Positions 3,402-47,515 of a DNA stretch of 64,000 nt are shown here, in pieces. A program made the position numbers and the translations under genes. This DNA is from Sulfurivermis fontis (GTDB lineage Bacteria; Pseudomonadota; Gammaproteobacteria; Thiohalomonadales; Thiohalomonadaceae): positions 1,976,501-2,040,500 of the forward strand of contig NZ_AP018724.1 in assembly GCF_004001245.1 (NCBI RefSeq). The letters run 5' to 3'. The notes under the pieces are model-generated. The model made no database searches. It was not told where the DNA came from and saw nothing but the letters and a program-made list of their open reading frames with translations. How positions within the stretch are numbered: position 1 is the stretch's first letter; the number at the start of each line of letters is the position of its first letter.

Positions 3402-3606
3402 GGAAGCTCTGAATAAGTTCAGAGCTTCCGCGGCACAGGGATGTGCCGCCAATTTTCAACGACGATAACTCGTTGGAAAATGAAGCCAAGCGAAAATCAC
3501 ACTTTTCGATGGGCGTGGTTTTGTCCACGGATGGACTTATGGCGCGGAGCCCATGGAGGGGTGGGAGCGACCTGAAAAGTCCAGGATGGACTTATTCAGA
3601 CCTTCC
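3402..3606 (+). mobile_element. MITE-like chained-hairpin element, copy 1 (longest, 205 bp)
   Basis: A non-coding element bounded by imperfect terminal inverted repeats GGAAGCTCTGAATAAGT and, at the other end, GGAAGGTCTGAATAAGT (reverse complement). It is flanked by direct repeats CTAA at 3398-3401 and 3607-3610. Inside, successive hairpins can be read: a perfect 12-bp repeat with a TAAG loop, a GCGGCACA stem, an AACGAC/GTCGTT-type stem, a CCAAGCGAAAA-type stem and an AAGTCC/GGACTT stem. Parts recur at 13386-13520 (inverted) and 46442-46594. The end sequence and 4-bp CTAR duplication resemble the IS5 subgroup of IS5 transposons; mobilisation by such a transposase is inference. Confidence 0.8.
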
Positions 3607-3738
3607 CTAACTAGCCGCTCCGGGCTGGTAACCGAACGACCTGCGCGAATTCTGTGGTTCGGGCTGAAGTCCGAGCCACAACAACCTGGATACCAATTCG
3701 GCACATTCCGCCTGCGAACACGCAACGGTGCCTGGTGT

Positions 3739-9987: not shown

Positions 9988-11784
9988 ATGTTCGACCACA
10001 CCACCTCTGCCCTGGCCGGCCTCGCCCTGGCGGCCGTCGCCTGCCAGTGGCTCGCCTGGCGTCTGCGCCTCCCCGTAATCCTGTTGCTGCTGCTGGCAGG
10101 CGTCCTGGCCGGGCCGTTCAGCGGCCTGATCCGACCCGACACCCTGTTTGGCGGCCTGCTGCCATCGCTGTTGTCCCTGACAGTGGCCATCGTCCTGTTC
10201 GAAGGCAGCCTGAGCTTCCGCCTCAACGACCTCAGCGGTCTCGGCGGCACGGTGCTCCGGCTGGTGAGCCTCGGCGCCCTGCTCAACGGCCTGCTCATCG
10301 CCGCCGCCGCCCACCTGCTGCTGGGCCTGCCCTGGCTGGTGGCCGCCCTGTTCGGCGCCATCGCCCTGATCAGCGGCAACAGCGAACTGCTGCCCCTGCT
10401 GCGCCGCGCCCGTCCCGGCGCCCGTCTCGGCACCCTGCTGCGCCAGGAGGCCGCCCTGCTCGCCCCCTTCGCCACCCTGCTCGCCGTGCTGCTGCACGCC
10501 TGGCTGATGGCCGGCGACCAACACGATCCGCTGCTGGCCTTCGCCAGTGCCCTCCTCGCCGGCGGTGCCCTGGGTATCGCCGGGGCCTACCTGCTGGCAT
10601 TGCTGCTGCGCAATCACCTGCTGCCGCCGCATCTGGTCAACATCGCCACCCTGGCCCTGGTGCTGGGCAACTTCACCCTCGCCAGCACCCTGGAACAGGA
10701 GGCGGGCCTGCTCACCGTCATCGTCATGGGCATGGCCCTGGCCAACATGAAAGACCTGCCGCTGCGCGACCATGTCGGCTTCAAGGAAAGCCTCAGCGCG
10801 ACACTGCTGTCCCTGCTGTTCATCGTCATCGCTGCACGGCTGGAACCCGCGCAACTCGCCCTGCCCGGCCATGAAGTCCTGCTGCTGCTCGGCATGATCC
10901 TGCTCGCCGCACGGCCGCTGGCGGTGTTGCTCGCCACCCTCGGCTCACCGCTCAACTGGCGTGAGCGGCTGCTGGCCGGCTGGCTCGCCCCGCGCGGCAT
11001 CATGGCCACCGCCACCGCCGCCCTGCTCAGCCTGCAATTGCCGGACACCGCCGCACCTCTGCTCTCCCTGATTCTGCTCCTGGTGCTGGGTGCGCTGCTG
11101 CTGCAGCACCTCACCGCCTACCCGTTGGGACGGCTGCTGGGTGTGGCCGAGGCGGCACCGCGCGGCGTGTTGATCATCGGCGCCCACGGCGTGGCCCGCG
11201 CCATCGCCCGCACCCTGGAGGCCGCAGGCGTGCGCGCCGTGCTGGCCGACACCGACTGGGAGGACATCCACCAGGCACGCATGGACGGCCTTACCACCTT
11301 CCTCGGCCACCCGGTATCGGAACAGGCCGATCGCAGCCTGGATCTCATCGGCATCGGCCACCTGCTCGCCATGTCGCACCGTCCGGCCCTCAACGCCCAG
11401 GCCTGCCAGCGCTATGCCAGTGAATTCGGCGCCGGCCGCGTCTACTCCCTGCTCACCGCCGAGGAAAAGCGCTCCAGCAGCAAGAGCGCCATCGGCCGCC
11501 ACTATGCCGCCACCCGCCTGTGCGGTGGTGAATACACCCTCACCCAACTCGGCGGCATACTGACCCGCGGCGGCCGCCTCGCCGTGCTCAACCCGGCGGA
11601 GGCGGAACAGCAGCCACGCCATATCCCGCTGTTCGTGCTCACGGCCGGCGGCGCACTGGAGGTCGTCACCGGCGGCGATATTGCGTTGCATGACGGTGAT
11701 CGCCTCATCGCCCTGCTGCCGGCAGCGGAGGAGCAGCTTCCCCTGCGCGCCGATTCTGCCGTCACCGGCGCCGCCCTGGCCTGA
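9988..11784 (+). CDS. CPA1-like antiporter membrane protein with C-terminal RCK/TrkA domain
   Basis: A 598-residue protein: about 12 membrane helices (5-385), then a Rossmann TrkA-N-like domain starting GVLIIGAHGVARAI (about 393), and a TrkA-C-like end. The fold resembles NhaP-type cation:proton antiporters gated by nucleotide. The motif that normally reads TDP in the fifth helix is SGNSEL here, and the usual EGESLLND stretch reads RQEAALLAP, so the acidic ion-binding residues of the family appear replaced. It may therefore not be an electrogenic Na+/H+ exchanger. ATG 9988 was preferred to TTG 9979 because GAGGA lies upstream. The next gene follows after 17 bp. Confidence 0.8.
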   Translation: MFDHTTSALAGLALAAVACQWLAWRLRLPVILLLLLAGVLAGPFSGLIRPDTLFGGLLPSLLSLTVAIVLFEGSLSFRLNDLSGLGGTVLRLVSLGALLNGLLIAAAAHLLLGLPWLVAALFGAIALISGNSELLPLLRRARPGARLGTLLRQEAALLAPFATLLAVLLHAWLMAGDQHDPLLAFASALLAGGALGIAGAYLLALLLRNHLLPPHLVNIATLALVLGNFTLASTLEQEAGLLTVIVMGMALANMKDLPLRDHVGFKESLSATLLSLLFIVIAARLEPAQLALPGHEVLLLLGMILLAARPLAVLLATLGSPLNWRERLLAGWLAPRGIMATATAALLSLQLPDTAAPLLSLILLLVLGALLLQHLTAYPLGRLLGVAEAAPRGVLIIGAHGVARAIARTLEAAGVRAVLADTDWEDIHQARMDGLTTFLGHPVSEQADRSLDLIGIGHLLAMSHRPALNAQACQRYASEFGAGRVYSLLTAEEKRSSSKSAIGRHYAATRLCGGEYTLTQLGGILTRGGRLAVLNPAEAEQQPRHIPLFVLTAGGALEVVTGGDIALHDGDRLIALLPAAEEQLPLRADSAVTGAALA

Positions 11785-11801
11785 ACCGCAGGAATATCAC
11801 C

Positions 11802-12062
11802 ATGAAATGCTTCATCTACAAAAGCAGCAAAAAAGATCAGCTCTATCTCTACCTGCCCAGGCAGGACGACTTCAAGGACGTGCCGCCGATCCTGATGGAC
11901 ACCATGGGCCAACCCGTATTCGTCATGGAGCTGGAACTGAATCCGGAGCGCAAACTGGCCCGCGCCAATGTCGCCGAGGTGCTCGCCGGCCTGGCGGACA
12001 GGGGCTTTTATCTGCAGATGCCGCCCAAGGACCCGCTCGCCGACATGCGTGTCGGTTCATAA
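11802..12062 (+). CDS. YcgL domain protein
   Basis: An 86-residue protein of the YcgL family, a small gammaproteobacterial family of unknown biochemical role. The characteristic start MKCFIYKSSKK, the LYLPRQDDF segment and the end FYLQMPP are all present, so it is complete. It is separated from the upstream antiporter-like gene by 17 bp (AGGAATATCACC before ATG) and likely co-transcribed with it. Confidence 0.88.
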   Translation: MKCFIYKSSKKDQLYLYLPRQDDFKDVPPILMDTMGQPVFVMELELNPERKLARANVAEVLAGLADRGFYLQMPPKDPLADMRVGS

Positions 12063-12143
12063 ACACGTTGCGGCTGTCACAAACCTCAACAGCGCAGCAT
12101 CGCAACCCGAAACTGCAACGACAATAACCGACAGGAAAGAGCC

Positions 12144-13385
12144 ATGCCCCTGATTCGCCCCTTCGCCGGTCTGTGCCCCGCCCCCAACCGCGCCGCCGAG
12201 GTAGCCGCCCCGCCCTACGACGTGCTCGACAGCAACGAGGCGCGCCAGCGGGCGGCGGACAAACCCTGGAGCTTCCTGCACATTTCCAAGCCGGAGATCG
12301 ACCTGGCGCCGGACATCGATCCGTATGACCCCCGCGTCTACGCCAAGGGCAAGGAAAACTTCGAGCGCATGCTCAGGGAAGGCGTGCTGCAACAAGACCC
12401 GGCACCCTGTTATTACCTCTACCGCCTGATCATGGGCAGCCATCAGCAGATCGGCCTGGTCGCCGCCGCCCGCGTCAGCGACTACGACAACAATCGCATC
12501 CGCAAACACGAATTCACCCGTCCGGACAAGGAAGACGACCGCGTGCGCCAGATCGACAGCCTGAGCGCGCAGACCGGCCCGGTGTTCCTCACCTACAAAC
12601 ACAGTACCGTGATCGACGAACTGGTCGCTCACGCCGTGACCGCCGCGCCGGACATCGACATCACCGCCGACACCGGCGTGCGCCACTCCATCTGGCGCGT
12701 CACCGACAGCGCGCGCATCGATCTCATCACACGCACCTTCGACGCCATGGACTGCCTGTACATCGCCGACGGCCACCACCGCTCCGCCGCCGCCTCGCGC
12801 GTGGCCGCCGCGCGCAAGGCCGCCAATCCCAACCACAACGGCGAAGAACCCTATAACTACTTCCTGTCGGTGATCTTCCCTGACAATCAGATGCAAATCC
12901 TCGACTACAACCGCGTGATCAGGGACCTCGACGGCCAGACGCCGGACAGCTTCCTGGCCGCCGTGAGCAAGGCATTCACGGTGGAAAAGACCGGCGGACA
13001 GTGCAAACCGGCCCGGGCCGGCGAGTTCGGCATGTACCTGAAAGGCCAGTGGTATCGCCTGACCATCAAGCCGGAACTGGTCCCGCAGGATGACCCGGTG
13101 AAGCGCCTCGATGTCAGCCTGCTGCAGGACAACCTGATCGAACCGGTGCTGGGGATAGCCGACCCGCGCCGCGACAAGCGCATCGACTTCGTCGGCGGCA
13201 TCCGCGGCCTCACCGAACTGGAGCGCCGCGTGAACAGCGGCGAGATGGCCGTGGCCTTCGCCCTCCACCCGACGTCGATGGCGCAGCTGATGGCCGTCGC
13301 CGATGCCGGCGAGGTGATGCCGCCCAAGTCCACCTGGTTCGAGCCCAAGCTCGCCGACGGCCTGGTATCGCACCTGCTCGACTAG
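12144..13385 (+). CDS. DUF1015 family protein
   Basis: A 413-residue protein of the DUF1015 family, recognised from the N-terminal signature RPFAGLCPAP and AAPPYDVL, the central YRLIMGS/FTRPDKEDDR region and the IADGHHRSAAASR block. The function is not established. It looks cytoplasmic and complete. AGGAAAGAGCC precedes ATG. The TAG stop coincides with the left target-site duplication (CTAG) of MITE copy 2, so the element inserted exactly at the end of the gene without changing the protein. Confidence 0.9.
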   Translation: MPLIRPFAGLCPAPNRAAEVAAPPYDVLDSNEARQRAADKPWSFLHISKPEIDLAPDIDPYDPRVYAKGKENFERMLREGVLQQDPAPCYYLYRLIMGSHQQIGLVAAARVSDYDNNRIRKHEFTRPDKEDDRVRQIDSLSAQTGPVFLTYKHSTVIDELVAHAVTAAPDIDITADTGVRHSIWRVTDSARIDLITRTFDAMDCLYIADGHHRSAAASRVAAARKAANPNHNGEEPYNYFLSVIFPDNQMQILDYNRVIRDLDGQTPDSFLAAVSKAFTVEKTGGQCKPARAGEFGMYLKGQWYRLTIKPELVPQDDPVKRLDVSLLQDNLIEPVLGIADPRRDKRIDFVGGIRGLTELERRVNSGEMAVAFALHPTSMAQLMAVADAGEVMPPKSTWFEPKLADGLVSHLLD

Positions 13386-13520
13386 GGAAGGTCTGAATAA
13401 GTCCATCCTGGACTTCTCAGGTCGCTCCCGCCCCTCCCTGGGCTGCGCGACATAAGTCCATCCGTGGACAAAACCACACATCCCTGTGCCGCGGAAGCTC
13501 TGAACTTATTCAGAGCTTCC
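13386..13520 (-). mobile_element. MITE-like element, copy 2 (135 bp, inverted)
   Basis: It begins GGAAGGTCTGAATAAGT and ends with the complement of GGAAGCTCTGAATAAGT, flanked by perfect CTAG duplications (13382-13385 and 13521-13524). Relative to copy 1 it is inverted and lacks the AACGAC and CCAAGCGAAAA hairpins, but keeps the stretch containing GTCCACGGATGGACTTAT and GGGAGCGACCTGA. It therefore looks like an internal-deletion derivative of the long form. It sits between two convergent genes, and each flank supplies a stop codon. Confidence 0.85.
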
Positions 13521-25131: not shown

Positions 25132-27306
25132 ATGAGCGAACTGCCCGACGCCCACCGCCGCATCCTCGAAGCACGCCATCACGACCCCTTCACCGTTCTG
25201 GGCCGGCACCAGGAAGGTGACAGCATGGTGATCCGTGCCCTGCTTCCCGGTACGGCAGAGGCAGCGGTGGAAGGCAATGACGGCCTGCTGCCGATGACGC
25301 GGCTGTACAACAGCGACCTGTTCGAGTGGCGCGGCGACGGCAACCGGGTTCCCCTGCGCTACCGCCTGCACTGGCGCGATGGCAGCGGCCATGCCCAGGC
25401 CCTGCACGACCCCTACTGTTTCCCTCCACAATTGGGTGACTTCGATCTCTATCTGTTCGGCGAGGGCCGCCACCATCACGCCTACCGCTTCCTCGGTGCC
25501 CATCCGCGCTGCATCGACGGCATCGACGGCGTGCAGTTCGCGGTCTGGGCCCCCAATGCGGAGCGCGTCAGCGTGGTCGGCGACTTCAACCGCTGGGACG
25601 GCCGCTGCCATCCCATGCGCACCCGCGGTGGCGGCGGTGTGTGGGAACTGTTCATTCCCGGCCTGCAGGCGGGTACCCTGTACAAGTTCGAACTGCGCCA
25701 CCGCGATAGCGGCGCCGTGATGGTAAAGACCGACCCCTACGGCCGCCGCTTCGAGCTGCGCCCGGCCACCGCCGCCATTGTCGATGCCGAGAGCCGCTAT
25801 CCCTGGCAGGACGGCGACTGGCTGCGCAACCGTGCCAACCGCGACTGGCTGCACACACCGATGACCATCTACGAGGTGCACCTGGGCTCCTGGCAGAAAG
25901 ACGACAATTACCATTTCCTCAGCTACCGCGAACTGGCCCAGCGCCTGGTGGATTATGTCAAGCCCATGGGGTTCACCCACATCGAGCTGCTGCCCGTCAC
26001 CGAACACCCGCTGGACGGCTCCTGGGGCTACCAGAGCACCGGCTACTACGCCGCGACCAGCCGCTTCGGCCACCCCGATGACCTGCGCTACCTCGTCGAC
26101 CTGTGCCACCAGAACGGCATCGGCGTGATCCTCGACTGGGTGCCGGCCCATTTCCCGCGCGACGCCTTCGCCCTGGCCCGTTTCGATGGCAGCCCGCTGT
26201 ACGAACACGAAGACCCGCGCCGCGGCGAACACCGCGACTGGGGCACATTGATCTTCAATTACGGCCGCAACGAGGTGAAGAACTTCCTCATCTCCAGCGC
26301 CGTGTACTGGTTGCAGGAGTTCCACATCGACGCCCTGCGCGTGGATGCCGTGGCCTCCATGCTCTATCTGGACTACTCGCGCCAGCCCGGCGACTGGCTG
26401 CCCAACGTCTACGGCGGGCGCGAAAACCTGGAGGCCATCGCCTTCCTGCAGGAACTGAACAGCGTGGTGCACGAGCAGTTCCCCGGCGCCCTCACCATGG
26501 CCGAGGAATCCACCGCCTGGCCCATGGTGTCGCGCCCGGTCAGCATGGGCGGCCTGGGTTTTTCGATGAAATGGAACATGGGCTGGATGAACGACACCCT
26601 GAACTACATGCACAAGGAGCCGGTGCACCGCGCCTACCACCACGACTTGCTCACCTTCGGCCTGCTCTACGCCTTCAGCGAGAACTTCATCCTGCCCTTC
26701 TCCCACGACGAGGTGGTGCACGGCAAACGCTCCATGCTGGACAAGATGCCGGGCGACGACTGGCAGCGCTTCGCCAACCTGCGCTTGCTCTACACCTACA
26801 TGTACACCATGCCGGGCAAGAAGCTGCTGTTCATGGGCAACGAGTTCGGCCAGGGCAGGGAATGGGACGATGACCACGCCTTGGACTGGTATCTGCTGGA
26901 ACGGCCGCAACACCAGGGCGTGCACCGCCTGGTCGGCGACCTCAACCGCCTGTACCGCGAGCAGCGCGCCCTGCACTACTACGACTTCGAGGGCCAGGGC
27001 TTCGAGTGGATCGATTGCCACGACGCTCGCGCCTCCCTGCTCAGCTACGTGCGCCGCGCCGGCGAGGAGTTGGTGGTGGTGGCGCTCAACTTCACCCCGG
27101 TGCCGCACCATCACTTCCGCCTCGGCGTACCGCGCCCCGGCAGCTACGAGGTGGTGTTCAACTCCGACTCCGGCTACTACGGCGGCAGCAACATCGGCAG
27201 CGCCGGCCCGCTCTCCAGCGAGGCCATACCGCACATGGGACGGCAGTGGTCGGTACAATTTCCGCTTCCGCCCCTGGCCGGCGTCGTACTAAGATTGAAG
27301 CCCTAG
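25132..27306 (+). CDS. glgB: 1,4-alpha-glucan branching enzyme
   Basis: A 724-residue GH13 enzyme adding alpha-1,6 branches to glycogen. An N-terminal domain (1-105) and CBM48 (about 120-210, [15 protein letters not shown]) precede the catalytic barrel: [27 protein letters not shown] (nucleophile Asp, about 404), TMAEEST (Glu, about 459) and [10 protein letters not shown] (about 527). The C-terminal beta domain ends at VVLRLKP. It is complete. The ribosome binding site is weak. It is divergent from glgC. Confidence 0.97.
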
Positions 27307-27421: not shown

Positions 27422-30400
27422 ATGTACAATGCCCCCCGCCTGCGCCATTTCCTGTTCGGCGCCCTGCTCGCCCTCGGCAGCGCCCACGCCGACATCACCC
27501 TCGACGCCCAGATCGTCTCCGACGAGAAGGAACGCCTCATCGGCTATGTCACGGCCATCGCCGCCGGCGACAACGGCAGCTTCTATACCGCCGACAGCCG
27601 TGACGGTCTGCTGGTGCACTTCGCCGCGGAGGGACGCAGCGCCGTGGCCCTCGCCGGCAAGGAGCACGCCTTTTCCTCCAGCCGGGTGCGCGGCCTGGTG
27701 CGCCTCGGCCGCGACCGTTTCGCCGTGGCCAACGAGGGTGACGGCAAGGTCGCCATCATCGACGGCAAGGGCTCGGTAATCCAGAAATTCGGCGACAGCG
27801 GCAATGCCGAGGGCCGCCTCGGCGGCCCCGCGGGTCTGGCCTGGTCGCAGAATCGCCGCCTCTACGTGGCGGACAAGGGTGCCAACCGCATCAGCGTATT
27901 CGGCCCCGACGGCGTCTACATCCGTACCCTCGGCGGCCAGGAAGGGGCCCGGCTGGACACTCCGGAACAGGTCTATGTGGATCACCGCGAGCGGGTCTAC
28001 GTCTTCGAGCGGCGCAACCGCGGCACCCTGAGCGTGTTCGCCCACGACGGCGCCCTGCTGCACCGCACCGATGGTGACACCCTCGGCAAGGCCGCCAAGG
28101 CCTCCCTGCGTCTGACCACCCTCGCGGTGGACCCGGTCACCGGCTATGTCTACCTGGGCGACAGCGAGAACGGACGTATCTACATGTACGACTGGGAGAG
28201 CGGCGCCCTGCAGTCCGGTTTCGGCACCAAAGGCCGCCAGCGCGGCCAGTTCGCCGACATTTCCGCCCTGGCACTGCTGACCGATGGCCGTCTGGCGGTG
28301 GCCGACAATGAAAACAAGAAGATAGAGATCTACCGCCTGCCGCCCAGCGACCGCACGCCGCTGCCACGGCTGCACCTGCCCACCATCACCCAGGCCGGCC
28401 ACCTCACCCTGGAATGCGACCTCGCCTACCACGCCGCAGACGGCAAACACTGGTGCCTGAGCCGCCGTAGCGGCGGTGTCCTGCGCGACGGCGACGGTAA
28501 CACCCTGCTCACCCTGCAGGACACCCTGGACAAACCCCGGGCCGCCAGCTTCGGCAGCGACCGCATCGCCCTCATCGACGACAGCAAACTGAAGATCTTC
28601 GCCCCGGACGGCAGCCTGCTGTTCACCTCCGGCGACAACCGCGCCCCGGCCAGCGACCCCTTCGGCACCGGCGGCGGCCAGTTCGACGCCTCCACCGACG
28701 GCAAATTCGATCGCCCCGCCGACGTCTACCTGCGCGGCGAGCGCATCTACGTCATCGACAGTTCCAACCGCCGTCTGCAAATCTTCTCCCACGACGGCCT
28801 GTACCTGGACAAGATCGCCAACCCCAAGTCGCGTCCCTGGCTGTTCGAGGAGCCGGTGACGGTGGCGGTGGACTCCCGCGGCACCCTCTATGTCGGCGAT
28901 CAGGCACTCAAGCAGGTGCTGATCTTCGGCCGCAACAAGCAGCTCATCGGCCAGATCGACGGCGGTGAACTACCGGGCGAGAAGTTCAGCGAGATATTCG
29001 ACCTGGAGGTCGACGCCGACGACAACCTGTATGTCCTGTGCGCCACGCCCAACAACGCATCAACCGTCCAGGTCTACCGCAACCGCCAGCTGGCCTTCAC
29101 CTTCGGCGCCCGCTCCGCCGATGCCAGCGGCTTTGACGCCCCGGTCAACCTGACCCTGCCACCCAGCGCGCAGCGCGTCGTCTCCCTCTATGACCGCGCG
29201 CGCAAACAACTCATCGATTTCAACTACCAGCAGGTACCGCCGGCAGTGGCCGACATCGCCGTCAGCGGCGGCACCCAACACAGCGAGCTGCGCTGGGGCG
29301 CCCTACGCAGCAGCTACATCACCGCCTACCGCGTGTACGGCGCCGCCACCCAGGAAGGCCCCTATCGCCTGATCACCGAGGTGCAGGAACCGCGAGCCCA
29401 ACTGGAACACAACGGCCACCCCCACAGCCTGTACTACCGCATTGCGGCCGTCAGCGGCTTCGGCGTGGAAGGCCCCGCCTCCGAGCCGGTGCTGGACCTG
29501 TTCCAGGCCGGCTACGGCCACTATCAGGCCAAGGCCTGGGCCGAGGCCGAGACCGCCTTCCGCCGCCAGCACGAGGAACATGCCAGCCACGCCGAAACCA
29601 ACAAATACCTCGGTCTGACCCTGATGGAGCAGCAGCAGTACGCTGCCGCACGCCCGTACTTCGAGCTCCTCGCCCAGCAACCCGGCCACGAGGCCGAGGG
29701 TGCCCGTCTGTTGGTCGACGCCTGGCGCGCCGCCGGGGACGATGTCGCGGCCAAGGGCGTGATAGACCGCGTGCTGGCCCGCGGTACTGCCACCCCGGAA
29801 CTGCGCCTGCTGTGCGGCGAGCTTAGTCTTGCTCTCAACGACGCCATCGGCGCGGTGCAATGCCTGGAAGAGGCACTCAAGCAGGACGGCAACAACGTCC
29901 AGGCCCGCCTGTTGATGGCCGATGCCTACATCCGCCTCGGCATCACCGAACAGGGGCAGGCCGAACTGGCCTTGGCACGGGAGCTGGCGCCGGAGAATCC
30001 GCTGGTCTGGCGCCGCAGCGCGCAGATCCAGCAGCGCCTCGGCTCCCACGCCGCAGCCATCGAGTTCTATACCAAGACCCTGGAGCTGGCGCCGGACGAC
30101 CTGGACAGCCGCCTCGCCCTGGCGCGCAGCCACCGCGCCCTGGGCCAGCACGATCAGGTGCGCAACATCGCCCTCGCCCTCACCGGCCATGCCGAGACGG
30201 AAGGCGACGGTCACTACCTGCTCGGCACCCTCGCCCTGGAGGAGAAGAAATACGGTGAGGCCCTGCTGGCCCTGACCAAGGCCACCCGCGCCGCGCCGCA
30301 CCACGCCGCCGCCTGGCTGGCCCTGGCCGACGCCTACGTTCCGATGAAGCAGGAGCAGATGATTCCTGCCGCACTGGAAAAGGCCATGCAGGCCGACGCC

Positions 30401-32434
30401 AACTCCTTCGATGCCGCCTGGCGCCTGGGCCAATACCAGCACCAGCACGGCCAGTACGCCGCCGCGGCCGCACCGCTGGCCCACGCCGTGGCCCTGCAAC
30501 CCGACAATTACGACGCCAACTACCTGCTGGCCGATACCCTGCTGCGCCAAGGGGAACTGAAGGAAGCCTTCCAGCACGCCAGCGAGGCGGCGCGACTGTC
30601 CCCGGCCCGGGCCGAACCCCTGGCCCTGCTCGGTGCGATCTCGGCACGTCAGGGCAAGAATGGCGCCGCCATCAATTATCTCAAGCAGGCCCTCGCCAAA
30701 CAGGCCAACGACCTCGACCTGCTGCTGCAACTCGGCGCCCTGTACGTGGACAACAACATGTTCGATCAGGCGCGCACCACCCTGGACAAGGCCGCCCTGG
30801 TCGATACCACCCGTGCCGAACCCCACGTCCTGCTTGGCAAGTTGTACATGAAGCGACGCCTGTTCGACGAGGCCATTGCAGCCCTGGACAAGGCCGTCAC
30901 CCTCAATCCGTCCGACGACAACCGCCTGCTGCTCGACACCGCCTATGCCGAGAAGAACAAGGCGCTGGAGTTCAAATCCAACGCGCCGCAGATCGTGCTC
31001 AAGGACTTGCAGTTGCAGCCGGTGTTCACCGCCACCTACAAGCAGTACGCCAACGAACCCATCGGCACCATCCGCGTGCACAACACCAGCGGCATCGACT
31101 ACGGCAACCTCAAGCTGACCTTCGACATCAAGGGCTACATGGACTTCCCCACCGCGAAGGATATCCCGGAGCTGAAGGCCAACAGCATCATCGACGTGCC
31201 GCTGCACGCCTCCTTCAACAACCGGGTGCTGGAGATCGACGAAGACACCGGCGTGCAGGTGGAGGTGGCGCTCAAGTTCGTGCGTGACGGCCGCGACGAC
31301 GCCATCACCCTGACCCAGCCGATGACCCTGTACGGCAAGAATGCCATCCTGTGGGCGCGCAGCCACATGGCCGGCGCCTTCGTCACCCCGCGTGACGACA
31401 CCCTGCGCGACTTCGTGCGCCAGGCCATCAACGAGAATCGTCCGGAGGCCGGGCCGCTGAATGCCCATCTGGTCACGGCGATGACCCTGTTCGACGTGCT
31501 CTCCGCCCACGGCATCAAGTACGTCACCGACCCCAACAGCCCCTATGCCAAGCTGGCGGCGGATCAGGTCGACTACGTGCAGTTTGCGCGCGAAACCCTC
31601 AAGCTGAAGAGCGGCGACTGCGACGATCTTTCCGTGCTGCTGGCCGCCGCGCTGGAAAACCTCGGTATCGAAACCGCCCTGCTCGATATCCCCGGCCACC
31701 TGCTGCTGATGTTCAACACCGGCCTGCCGGCGGAGGATGCGGACATTATCAGCCTGCAGGACGACCTGCTCGCCATCCGCGACGGCCAGGTGTGGATCCC
31801 CGTCGAGGCCACCATGATCGCCACCTCCTTCGCCGAGGCCTGGGCGGAAGGCGCTCGCAAGTACCGCGACAACCTCGCCGCCGGCAAGCTGAAGGTAATC
31901 CCGCTGCACCGCGCCTGGGAAGAATACGTCCCGGTCACCCTCAAGCAGGCCGATTACCGTATCGCCGTGCCGGCGCAGGAACGCGTCGCGCCGCTGGTAC
32001 AGCGCGAATACAACCTGCTGCTGGAAAAGAGCCTCGACCGCCTGGTGCGCCCCTACCGCGCCATGCTCGCCACCAAGCCGGCCAACGAGCGCGCACTGAC
32101 CCAGATCGCCATCATCTACGCCCGCAACGGCCTGTACGACAAGGCCTTCCAGGCATTCGACGAACTGCTGCGCAAAAATCCCGACAGCAGCGCCGCCTAC
32201 AACAACCGTGGCAACATCTACTTTGCCCGCGGCGAATTCGACCGCGCGCTGCAAAGCTACAGCCAGGCCGAACTCATCGACGGCAGCGACGCCGGCATCA
32301 AGGTCAACCTGGCGATGACCCACTACAAGCTGGGCCGCCTCGATCAGGCCAAGGAAAAATATGCCGAGGCGCTGGCTTTGAACGGCGACATGAAAAACCG
32401 CTACGGCGAGTTCGCCCGCCTGCTGGCGAATTGA
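27422..32434 (+). CDS. giant secreted beta-propeller (NHL-like), FN3, TPR and transglutaminase-like protein
   Basis: A 1670-residue protein of unknown function. Domains in order: signal peptide cut after AHA (about 23); NHL/propeller repeats (about 30-600, for example GGPAGLAWSQNRRLYVADKG); a fibronectin III-like module (about 602-690); a long TPR solenoid (about 695-1190); a beta-rich segment; a transglutaminase-like domain with the candidate catalytic Cys in SGDCDDLSVLL (about 1399) and HLLLMF following; and three more TPRs at the end (YNNRGNIYFARGEFDRA). It is expected to be periplasmic or surface-exposed. Two small exported paralogs follow directly, suggesting one functional unit. Catalytic activity is not proven by sequence. 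Confidence 0.85.
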   Translation: MYNAPRLRHFLFGALLALGSAHADITLDAQIVSDEKERLIGYVTAIAAGDNGSFYTADSRDGLLVHFAAEGRSAVALAGKEHAFSSSRVRGLVRLGRDRFAVANEGDGKVAIIDGKGSVIQKFGDSGNAEGRLGGPAGLAWSQNRRLYVADKGANRISVFGPDGVYIRTLGGQEGARLDTPEQVYVDHRERVYVFERRNRGTLSVFAHDGALLHRTDGDTLGKAAKASLRLTTLAVDPVTGYVYLGDSENGRIYMYDWESGALQSGFGTKGRQRGQFADISALALLTDGRLAVADNENKKIEIYRLPPSDRTPLPRLHLPTITQAGHLTLECDLAYHAADGKHWCLSRRSGGVLRDGDGNTLLTLQDTLDKPRAASFGSDRIALIDDSKLKIFAPDGSLLFTSGDNRAPASDPFGTGGGQFDASTDGKFDRPADVYLRGERIYVIDSSNRRLQIFSHDGLYLDKIANPKSRPWLFEEPVTVAVDSRGTLYVGDQALKQVLIFGRNKQLIGQIDGGELPGEKFSEIFDLEVDADDNLYVLCATPNNASTVQVYRNRQLAFTFGARSADASGFDAPVNLTLPPSAQRVVSLYDRARKQLIDFNYQQVPPAVADIAVSGGTQHSELRWGALRSSYITAYRVYGAATQEGPYRLITEVQEPRAQLEHNGHPHSLYYRIAAVSGFGVEGPASEPVLDLFQAGYGHYQAKAWAEAETAFRRQHEEHASHAETNKYLGLTLMEQQQYAAARPYFELLAQQPGHEAEGARLLVDAWRAAGDDVAAKGVIDRVLARGTATPELRLLCGELSLALNDAIGAVQCLEEALKQDGNNVQARLLMADAYIRLGITEQGQAELALARELAPENPLVWRRSAQIQQRLGSHAAAIEFYTKTLELAPDDLDSRLALARSHRALGQHDQVRNIALALTGHAETEGDGHYLLGTLALEEKKYGEALLALTKATRAAPHHAAAWLALADAYVPMKQEQMIPAALEKAMQADANSFDAAWRLGQYQHQHGQYAAAAAPLAHAVALQPDNYDANYLLADTLLRQGELKEAFQHASEAARLSPARAEPLALLGAISARQGKNGAAINYLKQALAKQANDLDLLLQLGALYVDNNMFDQARTTLDKAALVDTTRAEPHVLLGKLYMKRRLFDEAIAALDKAVTLNPSDDNRLLLDTAYAEKNKALEFKSNAPQIVLKDLQLQPVFTATYKQYANEPIGTIRVHNTSGIDYGNLKLTFDIKGYMDFPTAKDIPELKANSIIDVPLHASFNNRVLEIDEDTGVQVEVALKFVRDGRDDAITLTQPMTLYGKNAILWARSHMAGAFVTPRDDTLRDFVRQAINENRPEAGPLNAHLVTAMTLFDVLSAHGIKYVTDPNSPYAKLAADQVDYVQFARETLKLKSGDCDDLSVLLAAALENLGIETALLDIPGHLLLMFNTGLPAEDADIISLQDDLLAIRDGQVWIPVEATMIATSFAEAWAEGARKYRDNLAAGKLKVIPLHRAWEEYVPVTLKQADYRIAVPAQERVAPLVQREYNLLLEKSLDRLVRPYRAMLATKPANERALTQIAIIYARNGLYDKAFQAFDELLRKNPDSSAAYNNRGNIYFARGEFDRALQSYSQAELIDGSDAGIKVNLAMTHYKLGRLDQAKEKYAEALALNGDMKNRYGEFARLLAN

Positions 32435-32460
32435 TAGCCACCTACAAGTGAGGATGTGAC

Positions 32461-33012
32461 ATGAACAAGATCATCGCGATCATGCTGCTGGCGGTGCTGA
32501 CGACGGCTATCGCCAGTGCCGAGACGCCCGCTCGGCCCGCCGCCGGCGAAACCAAGACCCAGCCGGAAAGCCGCTTTAAAGGTGCCGTATTCGATGCCCT
32601 GCGCAACCTGAGCGCCATGCTGCCGAAGCAGAACGGCCGCAACGCCGACCCGCGCCAGAGTGCCACCATGGGCATCCGCGGCGCCGAAACCACCACCACC
32701 CTGATCACGCCCTACTGGAAGGACGATCGCAGCGAAGACCCCGCCTTTCAGGCCGAGGTGCAGAGCTACGGTGCGGCGCAGCAGCTGCTCGAAGAGGGCA
32801 AGCTGAAGGAGGCCGAGGCCGCCTTCGGCAGCTTCATCCAGGCGCATGGCAACAGCGACCTGCTGCCCAATGCCCGCTTCGGCCAGGCCCTGGCCCTCGC
32901 CGCACTGGGTGACGGCAAAAAGAGCAAGGCGGCGATGGAGGCGTTCCTCAAGGATTACCCGCAGCATCCCCTCGCCGCCGATGCACAAAAGGTGGCCGCC
33001 GAGCTGAAGTGA
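32461..33012 (+). CDS. secreted TPR-like protein, paralog A
   Basis: A 183-residue exported protein with a signal peptide ending IASAE. A conserved motif FDALRNLSAMLPKQ (about 43-57) follows, and the C-terminal half is helical and TPR-like (AAQQLLEEGKLKEAEAAF, LLPNARFGQALALAALGD). Closely similar to the next gene over its length, so the pair arose by tandem duplication. It starts 26 bp after the giant propeller/TPR gene. No named family is recognised. Confidence 0.75.
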   Translation: MNKIIAIMLLAVLTTAIASAETPARPAAGETKTQPESRFKGAVFDALRNLSAMLPKQNGRNADPRQSATMGIRGAETTTTLITPYWKDDRSEDPAFQAEVQSYGAAQQLLEEGKLKEAEAAFGSFIQAHGNSDLLPNARFGQALALAALGDGKKSKAAMEAFLKDYPQHPLAADAQKVAAELK

Positions 33013-33043
33013 TCATGCGGCGCCGATCGGCGGCGGGCATCGC

Positions 33044-33586
33044 ATGAAGCGCATGGCCGTCATTGTTCTGCTGTCCCTGCTGGCCAGCGATGTATTGGCT
33101 GAAACAGCCCCGCAGGCCGCCGTTGCCGGCCCATCAAAATCAGCGGGGCCCCGTTTCCAGGGTGTGCTGTTCGACGCCCTGCGCCACCTCAGCGCCCTGC
33201 TGCCGAAGCAGCACCGCAGCAGCGGCGATCCGACGCAGATCATGGCCCTGGGCATCCGCGAGCGACGCAGTCCCTCCAGCGAGCCCGGTCTTGGCGAAGA
33301 TATGGCGGAAGACCTTGCCCGACAGCGTGTAATGCGGAACTACACCAGCGCACAGCGGCTGCTGGAAGAGGGCCAGCTGGAGGCAGCAGAGGCCGCCTTT
33401 GCCACCTTCGTGCAGAACCATGCGGACAGCGATCTCCTGCCCAACGCACGCTTTGGCCAGGCCCTGGCCATGGCCGCCCGGGGCGACGCCCAGCGCGGCA
33501 AGGCGGCGATGGAGGCCTTTGCCCACGACTACCCGCAACATCCGCTGGCAGGTGACGCCCGCAGGGTTGCCGCCGCGCTGCAGTAG
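33044..33586 (+). CDS. secreted TPR-like protein, paralog B
   Basis: A 180-residue exported protein (signal ending VLAE) that repeats the upstream gene: FDALRHLSALLPKQ, then LLEEGQLEAAEAAF, LLPNARFGQALAMAARGD and AMEAF..DYPQHPLA. Divergence is concentrated in the region 65-95. It is 31 bp downstream of paralog A and in the same apparent operon as the 1670-residue protein. Function unknown. Confidence 0.75.
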   Translation: MKRMAVIVLLSLLASDVLAETAPQAAVAGPSKSAGPRFQGVLFDALRHLSALLPKQHRSSGDPTQIMALGIRERRSPSSEPGLGEDMAEDLARQRVMRNYTSAQRLLEEGQLEAAEAAFATFVQNHADSDLLPNARFGQALAMAARGDAQRGKAAMEAFAHDYPQHPLAGDARRVAAALQ

Positions 33587-33912: not shown

Positions 33913-34803
33913 ATGGACCTGCAACACTTGCTGCGGGCCCACGCCGCCCGCGCCGAGGCCGCGCTGCAACAACGCCTGCCGCCCGCTGACGAACTCCCTG
34001 CCCACCTGCATGCCGCCATGCGCTATGCCGCGCTGGATGGCGGCAAGCGCGTGCGCCCGGTGCTGGTCTACACCACCGGCGGGGTGCTCGGCGTCCCGCT
34101 GGAGCAACTGGACGGCCCGGCCTGTGCGGTGGAACTGATCCATGCCTACTCGCTGGTGCACGACGACCTGCCGGCCATGGACGACGACGACCTGCGCCGC
34201 GGCAAGCCCACCTGCCACAGGGCTTTTGATGAGGCCACCGCCATCCTCGCCGGCGACGCCCTGCAGACCCTCGCCTTCCAGGTGCTGGCGGAAGACCCGG
34301 CCATGACCGCCGAACCCGCCCAGCGCCTCGCCATGGTGCGCGAGCTGGCCCTCGCCTCCGGCTCGCGCGGCATGGCCGGCGGCCAGGCCATCGACATGGC
34401 CGCCACCGGCGGCGCGCTGACCCTGCCCGAACTGCAGCGGATGCACAGCCTCAAGACCGGCGCCCTGATCCGCGCTGCCGTGCGCCTTGGCGCCCTCAGC
34501 CGTCCCGGCCTCGCCCCGGCGCTGTTCGCCGCCCTGGACGACTACGCCGCCGCCATCGGCCTCGCCTTCCAGATCCGCGACGACATCCTCGACGTCGAGA
34601 GCAGCACCGAGCAGCTGGGCAAGCGCCAGGGCGCCGATCAGGCCCTGGCCAAGAGCACCTACGTCGCCCTGCTCGGCCTCGACGGCGCCAAGGCCAAGGC
34701 CCGTGAAGTTCATGCCGCCGCCCGCGCCGCGCTCGCCCCGCTGGGGCAGGACGCGGAGCCGCTGGCGACCATTGCCGACTTCATCGTCGAACGGGTCAGT
34801 TGA
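33913..34803 (+). CDS. ispA: farnesyl/geranyl diphosphate synthase
   Basis: A 296-residue short-chain prenyltransferase condensing IPP with DMAPP/GPP. The first Asp-rich motif DDLPAMDDDDLRRG (about residue 84) and the second DDILD (about 224) are present, with GGKRVRP near 38 and GQAIDM in the middle. It supplies quinone, carotenoid and lipid-carrier precursors. It lies between xseB and dxs, likely one transcript. Confidence 0.96.
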   Translation: MDLQHLLRAHAARAEAALQQRLPPADELPAHLHAAMRYAALDGGKRVRPVLVYTTGGVLGVPLEQLDGPACAVELIHAYSLVHDDLPAMDDDDLRRGKPTCHRAFDEATAILAGDALQTLAFQVLAEDPAMTAEPAQRLAMVRELALASGSRGMAGGQAIDMAATGGALTLPELQRMHSLKTGALIRAAVRLGALSRPGLAPALFAALDDYAAAIGLAFQIRDDILDVESSTEQLGKRQGADQALAKSTYVALLGLDGAKAKAREVHAAARAALAPLGQDAEPLATIADFIVERVS

Positions 34804-34858
34804 CCCGCGGCGCCCGGCGTTCCATCATTAGCGGCTTTCCCGCCGCCCCAGGACCGTA

Positions 34859-36760
34859 ATGCCCAGCTCGCGCGCCTATCCGCTGCTAGAACAGGTCGAC
34901 ACGCCGGAACAGCTCCGCCAGCTCGACCTCGCCCAGCTCAGACAGCTGGCGGACGAGTTGCGCGACTACATGATCCGCTCGGTCAGCCACACCGGCGGCC
35001 ACCTGTCCGCCGGCCTCGGCACGGTGGAGCTGACCATTGCCCTGCATTACGTCTACGACACCCCCAACGACCGGCTGGTGTGGGACGTGGGCCACCAGAG
35101 TTATCCGCACAAAATCCTCACCGGCCGCCGCCGGCGTTTCCACACCCTGCGCCAGAAGAACGGTCTGTCCGGCTTCCCGCGCCGTGAGGAAAGCCCCTAC
35201 GACACCTTCGGCGTCGGCCATTCCAGCACCTCCATCAGCGCCGCCCTCGGCATGGCCCTGGCCGCCCGGCGCGAGGCCGCCAACCGCAAGGTGGTGGCCG
35301 TCATCGGCGACGGCGCGATGACCGCCGGCATGGCCTTCGAGGCGCTGAACCATGCCGGCGACCTGGACGCCGACCTGCTGGTGGTGCTGAACGACAACGA
35401 CATGTCCATCTCGCCCAACGTCGGCGGGCTGTCCAACTACCTCGGCCGCATCCTCTCCGGCAAGCTCTACTCCACCATGCGCGAGGGCTCCAAGAAGGTG
35501 CTCAAGACCATGCCCTCGCCGGTATGGGAACTGGCACGGCGCATGGAGGAGCACGCCAAGGGCATGGTGGTGCCCGGCACCCTGTTCGAGGAGCTGGGCT
35601 TCAACTACGCCGGCCCCATCGACGGCCACGACATCGAGCAGATGATCAAGGCCCTGCGGAACCTGCGCGCCCTGTCCGGCCCGCAGTTCCTGCACATCGT
35701 CACCCGCAAGGGCAAGGGCTTCGCCCCGGCGGAGGAGAACCCCTGCGCCTACCACGGCGTCACCGCCTTCGATCCCGCCACCGGTACCATGCGTGCCGCC
35801 AAACGCGCCACACCCACCTATACCGAGGTGTTCGGCCAGTGGCTGTGCGACATGGCCGGCCATGACGAGCGCCTCATCGGCATCACCCCGGCCATGCGCG
35901 AAGGCTCCGGCATGGTGGAGTTCTCGCAGCAGTTCCCGGACCGCTACTTCGACGTCGGCATCGCCGAGCAGCACGCCGTCACCCTGGCCGCCGGCCTGGC
36001 CTGCGAAGGCCTCAAGCCGGTAGTAGCCATTTACTCCACCTTTCTGCAGCGGGCCTACGACCAGCTCATCCACGACGTGGCCCTGCAGAACCTGCCGGTG
36101 CTGTTCGCCATCGACCGCGGCGGCTTGGTCGGCCCGGACGGCGCCACCCATGCCGGCAGCTTCGATCTCAGCTTCCTGCGCTGCATCCCCAACATGCTGC
36201 TGATGGCGCCGGGCGACGAGAACGAATGCCGCCAGATGCTCAGCACCGGCTTCCGCCACAACGGCCCGGCGGCCGTGCGCTACCCGCGCGGCGGCGGCCT
36301 CGGCACCGCCATCGACCCGGCGCTGACCACCCTGCCCATCGGCAAGGGCGAGCTGCGCCGCACGGGCAAGGACGTCGCCATCCTCGCCTTCGGCGCCCCG
36401 CTGGGCGCCGCCCTGACAGCGGCGGACATGCTGGACGCCACCGTGGCCAACATGCGCTTCATCCGCCCGCTGGACGCCGAACTGGTGCTGCAACTGGCCG
36501 CAAGCCACAAACTGCTGGTAACGGTGGAAGACAATGCCGTGCTGGGCGGTGCCGGCAGCGCGGTGAACGAATGCCTGGCGGCACACGGCATACAGGTGGC
36601 AGTGCTGAATCTGGGACTGCCCGATCGATTCCTGGAACAGGCCAGCCGCGAGGAACTGCTGGCGGATTGCGGGCTGGATGCCGATGGTATACTGCGGGCG
36701 ATTCAGACGCGCCTGTCGGGAACGCTTGCCATCCCCCCCGCCGCTGATGTAAATTCTTAG
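34859..36760 (+). CDS. dxs: 1-deoxy-D-xylulose-5-phosphate synthase
   Basis: A 633-residue thiamine-diphosphate enzyme making the first intermediate of the MEP isoprenoid pathway from pyruvate and glyceraldehyde 3-phosphate. The ThDP/Mg site [15 protein letters not shown] with VLNDNDMSI (about 152-180), the HSSTSIS segment and the second-domain Glu in [11 protein letters not shown] (about 370) are all intact. Full length. It is 55 bp after ispA. Confidence 0.97.
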
Positions 36761-46441: not shown

Positions 46442-46594
46442 GGAAGCTCTGAATAAGTTCAGAGCTTCCGCGGCACAGGAATGTGCCGCCATTTTCCAAC
46501 GACGATAAGTCGTTGGAAAATGAAGCCAAGCGAAAATCACGCTTTTCGCTTGGCGTGGTCTGAGAAGTCCAGGATGGACTTATTCAGACCTTCC
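46442..46594 (+). mobile_element. MITE-like element, copy 3 (153 bp)
   Basis: It begins GGAAGCTCTGAATAAGT and ends ACTTATTCAGACCTTCC. It contains the 12-bp hairpin, the GCGGCACA stem, an AACGAC/GTCGTT stem, a GCCAAGCGAAAA stem and the AAGTCC/GGACTT stem. Relative to copy 1 it lacks the GTCCACGG...GGGAGCGACC portion. The flanks are TTGG and TTAG, a target duplication with one mismatch. The right flank supplies the TAA stop of the minus-strand gene that ends at 46595. Confidence 0.82.
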
Positions 46595-47515
46595 TTAGAA
46601 CAGCGCCTCCTTGTAGGTATCATCCGCCACCTCGGTCAAGGCATTCTTGATCGCATCCGGGCTCTTCATGATGTTCATGAAGCTGTTGTCACCCATCATG
46701 GACAGGTCCGGGAAATTGATGGCGATACGGAAGCGGGCATACAGCGAGTACACCTTGCGATCGGAGACCAGGATTTCATAGGGCAGATGCGCGGTCGAGC
46801 GCAGCGGCTTGAAGTCGATTTCGCTCATGATGAAGGACTCGTCCATGTCCTTCTTCTTGTCATTGGGCGCCTTCATCGACACACCGAACACCACCTCGTC
46901 CTTGCCCGGGATATCGATACGGTACACCTGGGTCACGCCGGCCGTTCCCTTGGCCAGGCGCTCCGCGACCGCCTTCACCGCCTTCTCATGGCTCGGATAC
47001 ATGGCGTGGGTGGACGGTTCATCGAAATACTCCATGCCGAACATGTAGTGGTACTTGCGCAGCTGCTTCGGGGTCAGACCCTCGGCGGGACCGAACTCCT
47101 CCTGCTTGCCCAGCACCTGCGCCAACTGCGCGCTGACATCGGCCAGATCGCCTGCCATGCGATAGGCATGGGCCATGTAGGTGGGATTGGTATAGGCCAC
47201 CTGCAATTCACCGTTGACGTCGGTCACCGATACGCGCTGCGCGGCACCATAACCACCGAACTCGGATTTGGCTGCCGTCTGCTTCAGCTGTTCATTGGTC
47301 ACGGCGATGATGGTTGCAGTATCGTAGGGACGGTAGCTGCCCACCACCTCGAAACCGCCGGCGGTCAGCTTCTGCTGCACCTCGGCCGCCACCGCCGCCA
47401 TGTCGCCCTTGGTCTTGTAGGCCAGAACGAACGGCTTCAGCTTGTCTTCCGCCTGCGCGGACACCGCCAGGGCCAGCAGCCCCAGCACGATTACCATCTG
47501 CTTGATGCTCTTCAT
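46595..47515 (-). CDS. exported protein of unknown function next to FadL-type porin
   Basis: A 306-residue protein with a Sec signal peptide (LGLLALAVSAQAE). The mature part has an alpha/beta N-terminal domain (FVLAYKTKGDMAAVAAEVQ, about 25-75) and a longer C-terminal region with conserved-looking MFGMEYFDEPSTHAMYP and SLYARFRIAINFPDLSMMG. No membrane segment after the signal, so probably periplasmic. No confident family; the N-terminal part is faintly like DUF302. GGAGAGGGAGTC precedes ATG. It lies 124 bp downstream of the porin gene on the same strand, so a shared ligand is possible. Its stop codon lies in the MITE target duplication. Confidence 0.75.
   Translation of the reverse strand: MKSIKQMVIVLGLLALAVSAQAEDKLKPFVLAYKTKGDMAAVAAEVQQKLTAGGFEVVGSYRPYDTATIIAVTNEQLKQTAAKSEFGGYGAAQRVSVTDVNGELQVAYTNPTYMAHAYRMAGDLADVSAQLAQVLGKQEEFGPAEGLTPKQLRKYHYMFGMEYFDEPSTHAMYPSHEKAVKAVAERLAKGTAGVTQVYRIDIPGKDEVVFGVSMKAPNDKKKDMDESFIMSEIDFKPLRSTAHLPYEILVSDRKVYSLYARFRIAINFPDLSMMGDNSFMNIMKSPDAIKNALTEVADDTYKEALF

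Follow-up and report, generated by a model that had tools for sequence, protein, structure and literature searches.

We analysed a 64,000-nucleotide stretch of the Sulfurivermis fontis genome (contig NZ_AP018724.1, positions 1,976,501 to 2,040,500; hereafter the window) and found that a large and a small protein, both carrying export signals, are encoded there by adjacent genes that form a conserved unit. Within a transglutaminase-like core of the large protein, a Cys, a His and a Glu are invariant. The small protein has a strongly conserved motif between a predicted helix and a CpoB/BamD-like TPR region, in a stretch that is flexible in the model. Our leading reading, offered tentatively, is that these two genes form a cell-envelope cassette in which the enzyme core would process or dock a dedicated partner, with a tie to a cyclase in some lineages. 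Because the cassette is compact and conserved and offers specific residues as catalytic candidates and a candidate recognition motif, its chemistry is directly testable. Should the two proteins prove to be a protease and its substrate, envelope processing of the LapG type would gain a new domain design, possibly one that includes CHASE2 cyclases.

A conserved pair of genes for exported proteins

The large gene (27422..32434; all cassette features described here are on the forward strand) encodes a protein of 1670 amino acids (P0001) and has homologues in 29 other loci. It is followed on the same strand after 26 nucleotides (nt) by the gene of the small partner (P0002, 183 amino acids, 32461..33012) and, after a further 31 nt, by a third gene (P0003, 180 amino acids, 33044..33586). 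By inspection, all three proteins begin with a Sec-type signal sequence, with the cut in P0001 expected near residue 24, and they are presumably exported to the periplasm. A first-pass annotation of this DNA had listed the three open reading frames (ORFs) with their spacing, the propeller, FN3-like, TPR and transglutaminase-like architecture of the large protein and its SGDCDDL sequence, and the ORF list, Pfam and our alignments bear out each of these. It had also called the two small proteins similar and exported, and their sequences are indeed 51% identical.

We read 30 loci from 29 genomes of two classes, and in 29 of these loci the next gene on the same strand after the large gene is the small one. 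The intergenic gaps range from -86 to 106 nt when starts are assigned mechanically; with starts aligned to those of the window, the gaps in relatives of the same genus are 137 nt (L013), 187 nt (L014) and 153 nt (L015). What is conserved is the large gene together with one small gene, and two possible exceptions (L095 and G255, weighed below) are left by assembly gaps. Co-occurrence of the three genes, proposed earlier as a check, holds for the large gene and one small gene; the third gene stands outside the unit. The first-pass annotation had further presented the duplicated small proteins as a feature of the system. One small gene is the rule, and P0003 is a diverged duplicate that keeps GIR and has lost the RGAETT...PYW residues of the motif described below. 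Searches of about 19 kb from each of the other three genus members that have the system found no second small gene.

The distribution of the cassette is patchy: it is common in some genera and rare in others. We found it in 7 of 370 genomes of the class and in 11 of 397 genomes of the phylum. In one family of another class, possibly the Zetaproteobacteria, it occurs in 17 of 74 genomes (by genus 13 of 16, 3 of 11 and 1 of 23, as counted from the genome listing). Three of the 120 genomes in the order of G677 have it, all from one genus, as do 6 of the 20 genomes in the order of S. fontis itself. Within its own genus it is present in four of five genomes, the fifth (G003) being 84% complete. A search with the motif half of the small protein returned 8 of the 370 class genomes, namely the seven recovered with the enzyme profile and G255. 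Relatives in viral contigs were considered in 24 stretches, and none was confirmed. One genome, G505, holds two very similar copies of the cassette (L045 5325-10437 and L046 75-5189); the large gene is split in L045, into ORFs of 643 and 1045 amino acids, and is a single ORF of 1704 amino acids in L046.

The 3.25-Mb S. fontis genome has one full-length copy of the large gene, and four other matches are short and of TPR type by position. Three public metagenome-assembled genomes of the same genus, labelled Thiohalomonas denitrificans BE2011_63_42, HGW-Gammaproteobacteria-1 and RS263 bin.44, carry the large gene at 82-85% identity. The large gene has a ratio of nonsynonymous to synonymous substitution rates of 0.20-0.25, calculated against three same-genus relatives, and the first small gene one of 0.24-0.34. 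Overall GC and third-position GC of these two genes are near those of glgB and dxs in the same neighbourhood, and the third-position GC of the third gene is lower (0.77). The composition and context of the cassette bear no mark of recent acquisition.

The transglutaminase-like core and the motif of its partner

The core (31364..31906) was matched by Transglut_core, DUF553 and NF058533 in all 21 members scanned. Using the residue numbers of the window protein, and counting over the 30 loci from 29 genomes, three residues are invariant in 30 of 30: Cys1400, the presumed nucleophile (SGDCDDL, 31619..31621); His1426, presumed to be catalytic and 26 residues after the Cys (31697..31699); and Glu1462, the presumed third triad residue (W-x-P-x-E-x-T, 31805..31807). 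The His-to-Glu distance is 36 residues in 25 loci and 34 in five. An Asp precedes the Cys in 30 of 30 sequences and follows it in 29 of 30. The active site of one shortened relative, L094 (6437-10189), reads GDCVD rather than GDCDD. Cys and His are in register with the core of the transglutaminase-like superfamily, and the domain may be catalytic. A Cys-His-Asp triad had been named as a check in the first-pass annotation; its Cys and His are invariant in sequence, whereas the third residue is Glu throughout. In the AlphaFold model, built with four sequences (the window protein and three of the same genus), the corresponding region has a predicted local distance difference test score (pLDDT) of about 28.

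Transglut_core and DUF553 matched the core weakly: their best values were 9.7e-5 and 6.9e-5, and the window member scored 0.004 and 0.006, both below cut-off. For the whole large protein, no NCBIfam model exceeded its cut-off among the best 25 of 33, and those Pfam models among the best 25 of 35 that passed their cut-offs were repeat or propeller models. These scans do not identify the protein as a known family. Searching 177,635 PDB sequences with a profile of the core gave a single hit up to an expectation value (E) of 5, chain E of 4u65, annotated as 'putative cystine protease' (E 0.16). A wider profile gave six hits up to E 1, the 4u65 chain at 0.69 and five unrelated proteins. 4U65 is the Pseudomonas fluorescens LapD-LapG complex (PMC13090378).

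NF058533, the model for the anti-phage protein ProA, was the only NCBIfam model to match more than two of the 21 members, and it matched all of them (best E 4.7e-15). Five of 232 class genomes encode ProA proteins over the cut-off, and the two that we scanned have DUF4011, helicase and nuclease domains. The C-26-H-36-E spacing of the cassette core recurs identically in three of these five proteins; L052 has Cys and His in register and no Glu by pattern. In another, L056, Gln replaces the His of the other four measured (around residues 236-262), and this copy may be inactive. The cassette could on these grounds be an anti-phage system related to ProA, a reading that we find hardly credible. What the two share is the N-terminal module alone, a homologous beta plus transglutaminase-like module: the window member scores 42.9 bits, at a cut-off of 1500, over model positions 9-320 of 1903, and DUF4011, helicase and nuclease domains were not found among the Pfam and NCBIfam matches listed for the cassette. 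Its proteins carry export signals, PADLOC returned only weak TPR and PrimPol matches, and the plasmid and phage collections gave no match. The acidic residues that directly flank the Cys in the cassette are lacking in the five ProA proteins measured. A DUF4011 gene has been described as a core flank of a defence hotspot in Pseudomonas aeruginosa, with nothing on a transglutaminase-like module in the portion of that report considered here (PMC10250203). The kinship does give the N-terminal module of ProA, an anti-phage helicase-nuclease, an exported relative, located in a propeller/TPR protein.

The small partner is most conserved in its motif and not in its TPR, since column entropy is lowest there. 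Across 19 sequences, with P0003 left out, mean column entropy was 1.24 bits for the motif, 1.83 for the TPR and 1.94 for the helix region. The motif, SATMGIRGAETT...PYWKDD...D (residues 67-93, 32659..32739), follows the pattern TAVxGVRGAETT…PYW and is modelled as largely unstructured: in the AlphaFold model of P0002, pLDDT falls below 50 over residues 56-85, and the TPR is confident. The helix predicted before it comprises residues 42-52 (32584..32616; block pLDDT 85). The residues before GVRG are TAAG in L093 and L094, TAVG in L011, L012 and L042, and TAVxG, TMG or TAG variants elsewhere. By profile, the TPR is nearest to CpoB (6g5s, E 5.7e-17, profile positions 98-172). A fold search with the small protein gave nothing below E 0.001, and its best 50 rows were mainly TPR-type proteins.

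The small protein is thus favoured as a substrate or obligate docking partner because the ingredients of a Lap system appear to be present, namely a Cys-His-Glu core with acidic flanks and a partner with a helix and a motif. In the mechanism that we propose, the site of action would be the periplasm or the outer membrane, where the propellers, FN3 and TPR parts of the large protein would position the enzyme core. The helix and GVRG motif of the small partner would be what the core binds, much as LapG recognises a targeting helix followed by [T/A/P]AAG; the core would then cleave or transamidate the partner, or use it as an activator or adaptor. A weaker element of the proposal is that, in some lineages, the product of a neighbouring gene, a transmembrane adenylate/guanylate cyclase with a CHASE2 domain, may read or control the state of the pair, and the cassette would then link an event in the envelope to a cyclic nucleotide. 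In S. fontis, any such cyclase partner would act from elsewhere in the genome.

Architecture of the large protein and neighbouring genes

Repeats make up most of the large protein. Pfam scanning of the whole sequence returned NHL (E 3e-21) and many TPR families. We picked propeller blades by eye and counted 12 blade-like motifs over residues 52-601, which, with Pfam NHL matches in both halves, are consistent with two six-bladed propellers. The first propeller spans residues 52-305 (27575..28336; NHL E 2e-16 for residues 1-333) and the second residues 342-601 (28445..29224; NHL E 2.8e-9), each with six blade-like motifs, some of those in the second being degenerate. An FN3-like module follows at about residues 605-695 (29234..29506). 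Scanned alone against Pfam, this segment matched no model; it aligns with the FN3 regions of two shortened relatives, P0004 and P0005, of which P0004 is fn3-positive in Pfam. A TPR solenoid at about residues 700-1180 (29519..30961) was matched by TPR_19 and other models. The beta-rich domain at about residues 1190-1320 (30989..31381) has an invariant MDFP motif in an alignment of 21 sequences, and its strands are modelled at low confidence. A CBM21-like identity for this domain (2eef, PPP1R3B, E 0.094) was rejected as not significant; that lead had also drawn on glgB, which lies upstream of the cassette in this genus and was not noticed beside it in other genera among the neighbours listed. 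The C-terminal TPR block, at about residues 1553-1661 (32078..32404), was matched by Pfam and has a block pLDDT above 75.

Five loci (L011, L012, L042, L093 and L094) encode a short form of the large protein with 1245-1327 amino acids. The proteins of L011 (P0004) and L042 have NHL, two fn3 stretches, Transglut_core and C-terminal TPRs in Pfam. P0004 is 34% identical to the window protein over the C-terminal 475 residues and 24% over the propeller/FN3 part. By inspection, a lipoprotein-like LFAC box opens the short forms of L011 and L012. The middle TPR solenoid is missing from P0004 and P0005.

With interaction repeats forming so much of the protein, the pair might instead be an envelope scaffold, in which propellers and solenoid serve to build or steer a component of the envelope or outer membrane, the small protein is structural and the core is a degenerate binding domain. 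The nearness of the small protein's TPR to CpoB, YbgF and BamD fits such a role, and TPR models for BcsC and PgaA match, far below cut-off. We regard this alternative as possible but somewhat unlikely. Invariance of Cys, His and Glu in all 30 loci would be unexpected for a dead domain, and the short forms P0004 and P0005 retain the enzyme core without the solenoid. Moreover, among the neighbours listed, as named by inspection, we noticed no gene for secretion, polysaccharide or a porin across genera.

Cyclase genes adjoin part of the cassettes. In each of the five short-form loci, drawn from two genera, the gene immediately upstream of the large gene encodes a CHASE2 cyclase; those of these cyclases that we compared in pairs are 58-79% identical. 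One of the 25 long-form loci, L077, has a different CHASE2 cyclase (10901-13138) 9 nt downstream of the small gene. Pfam confirmed CHASE2 and guanylate_cyc in the two cyclases scanned, those of L012 and L077. The L077 cyclase has a 51%-identical relative in G391 that is on another contig than the cassette of that genome; cyclase linkage can therefore be gained or lost. Only adjacency is counted here because CHASE2 is common in the class anyway, and for the same reason we mostly rejected CHASE2 presence as evidence of co-occurrence.

These adjacencies would also suit a pure sensor module, in which the exported pair would detect a signal in the envelope and relay it to the CHASE2 cyclase with no covalent chemistry, as suggested for mtxA. 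A precedent for the gene order exists, in that mtxA encodes a periplasmic Ig/TPR protein and is followed by a CHASE2/adenylate cyclase-like gene; deletion of mtxA made no difference under standard conditions (PMC4439547). A sensor role of this kind appears unlikely to us, since the conserved Cys, His and Glu are left unexplained by it and adjacency is seen in just 1 of 25 long-form loci.

A MoxR-DUF58-TgpA operon adjoins the cassette divergently in L038 (14467-18275) and L039 (9620-13428), of one genus, and in L040 (14089-17993), of another family. TgpA acts in the cell wall, and this arrangement raises the prospect that the large protein modifies peptidoglycan or the cell wall together with a membrane transglutaminase of the TgpA type. 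We judge this very improbable: TgpA was not found in the other 27 of the 30 loci scanned, and no peptidoglycan-binding domain is among the Pfam matches listed. The first-pass annotation had proposed an envelope assembly or peptidoglycan/protein-modifying machine. Its observations stand and its interpretation is partly supported, in that protein modification is what we favour, envelope assembly persists as a rival, and the sole lead to peptidoglycan is the TgpA operon.

The remaining flanks differ between genera among the neighbours listed. In the window, glgB (25132-27306) lies upstream of the cassette and ispA and dxs (33913-36760) downstream, as named by inspecting the translations, and no CHASE2 cyclase adjoins it. 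Elsewhere in the window, a near-identical dispersed repeat occurs at 3574-3609 (forward strand), 13383-13418 (reverse strand) and 46562-46597 (forward strand). It translates as EKSRMDLFRPSL at all three sites, within ORFs that are otherwise unrelated.

Weighing the cassette against known systems

Several results weigh against an enzyme-partner cassette of the Lap kind. For the pairing, the contig of L095 ends 273 nt past the large gene, and tblastn of those 273 nt found no trace of a small gene; in L048 and L050, of the same genus, the small gene is 21 nt away. G255 may conversely have a small gene without the enzyme: its small gene runs off the end of a contig, and the enzyme profile found nothing in that genome. 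For the chemistry, the catalytic region was modelled at the low confidence given above, BTLCP was absent from the Pfam scan of the 21 members, and the 4u65 alignment, which runs across GDC[D/E]D, is not significant alone and serves as a pointer only. The third residue is a Glu 34-36 residues after the His, unlike the arrangement in HvyA (C192, H226, D241; PMC4241560). For partner recognition, a literal TAAG occurs in 2 of 29 small proteins, and linkers often contain short runs of small residues. For the cyclase, the other 24 of 25 long-form loci showed no CHASE2 gene in the fetched flanks, several of which are short, and CHASE2 somewhere in the genome, found in 23 of 23 genomes searched, has a background of 130 of 232 class genomes.

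A fuller version of our reading would make the large protein a propeller/TPR-mounted Cys-His-Glu protease that cuts or crosslinks through the partner's GVRG and is tied by a CHASE2 cyclase to cyclic AMP or cyclic GMP, a cyclic-nucleotide counterpart of Lap. We consider this complete form quite unlikely. The domain types are known ones, and the layout, an NHL/TPR/transglutaminase-like periplasmic cassette, was not found described in the literature as judged by titles; the mechanism proposed is plausible.

Among the separate parts, TgpA resembles the large protein in having Transglut_core, and differs in being a membrane protein with a strong match (E 1e-25) encoded by a separate gene. CpoB/YbgF and BamD are alike in the TPR of the small partner, and the match excludes its helix and GVRG motif. 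The gene neighbourhood of CpoB and BamD presumably also differs from that of the cassette. The mtxA operon is similar in that a gene for a periplasmic Ig-like/TPR protein adjoins a CHASE2-cyclase gene. We draw this likeness from the description of the operon, and the sections considered from the mtxA report mention no propeller or transglutaminase-like core for MtxA (PMC4439547).

HvyA of Caulobacter is an exported transglutaminase-like enzyme of the LapG kind that requires its Cys and His (PMC4241560). It differs from the cassette enzyme in having 272 residues, one BTLCP domain and a Cys-His-Asp triad, and no such partner is mentioned in the sections taken from its report. Asn occupies the third triad position in some BTLCPs (PMC4241560). 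At the sequence level, the cassette core differs from the BTLCP family in two defining features, the Cys-His-Asp triad and membership by profile, and shares a third, the acidic residues that flank the Cys.

The closest comparison is with LapG/LapD/LapA and DvhG. LapG is held by the cyclic di-GMP receptor LapD (PMC3032545). The transglutaminase-like proteases of Lap-type systems recognise their partner by a targeting helix, followed by a turn and a [T/A/P]AAG motif, and depend on calcium that acidic residues on either side of the Cys bind; in DvhG the residues D316 and E318 that flank the catalytic C317 are needed for calcium binding (PMC13090378). The cassette differs in several respects: its core has no BTLCP match in Pfam and has Glu rather than Asp at another spacing, its enzyme is fused to propellers, FN3 and TPRs, its partner is a small TPR protein and not a large adhesin, and the membrane protein linked to it is a CHASE2 cyclase and not a cyclic di-GMP receptor. 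The likenesses are an exported enzyme with a transglutaminase-like core and GDC[D/E]D at the Cys, a neighbour-encoded partner with a predicted helix before a conserved small-residue motif, and a nucleotide-signalling membrane protein encoded near the cassette in some loci.

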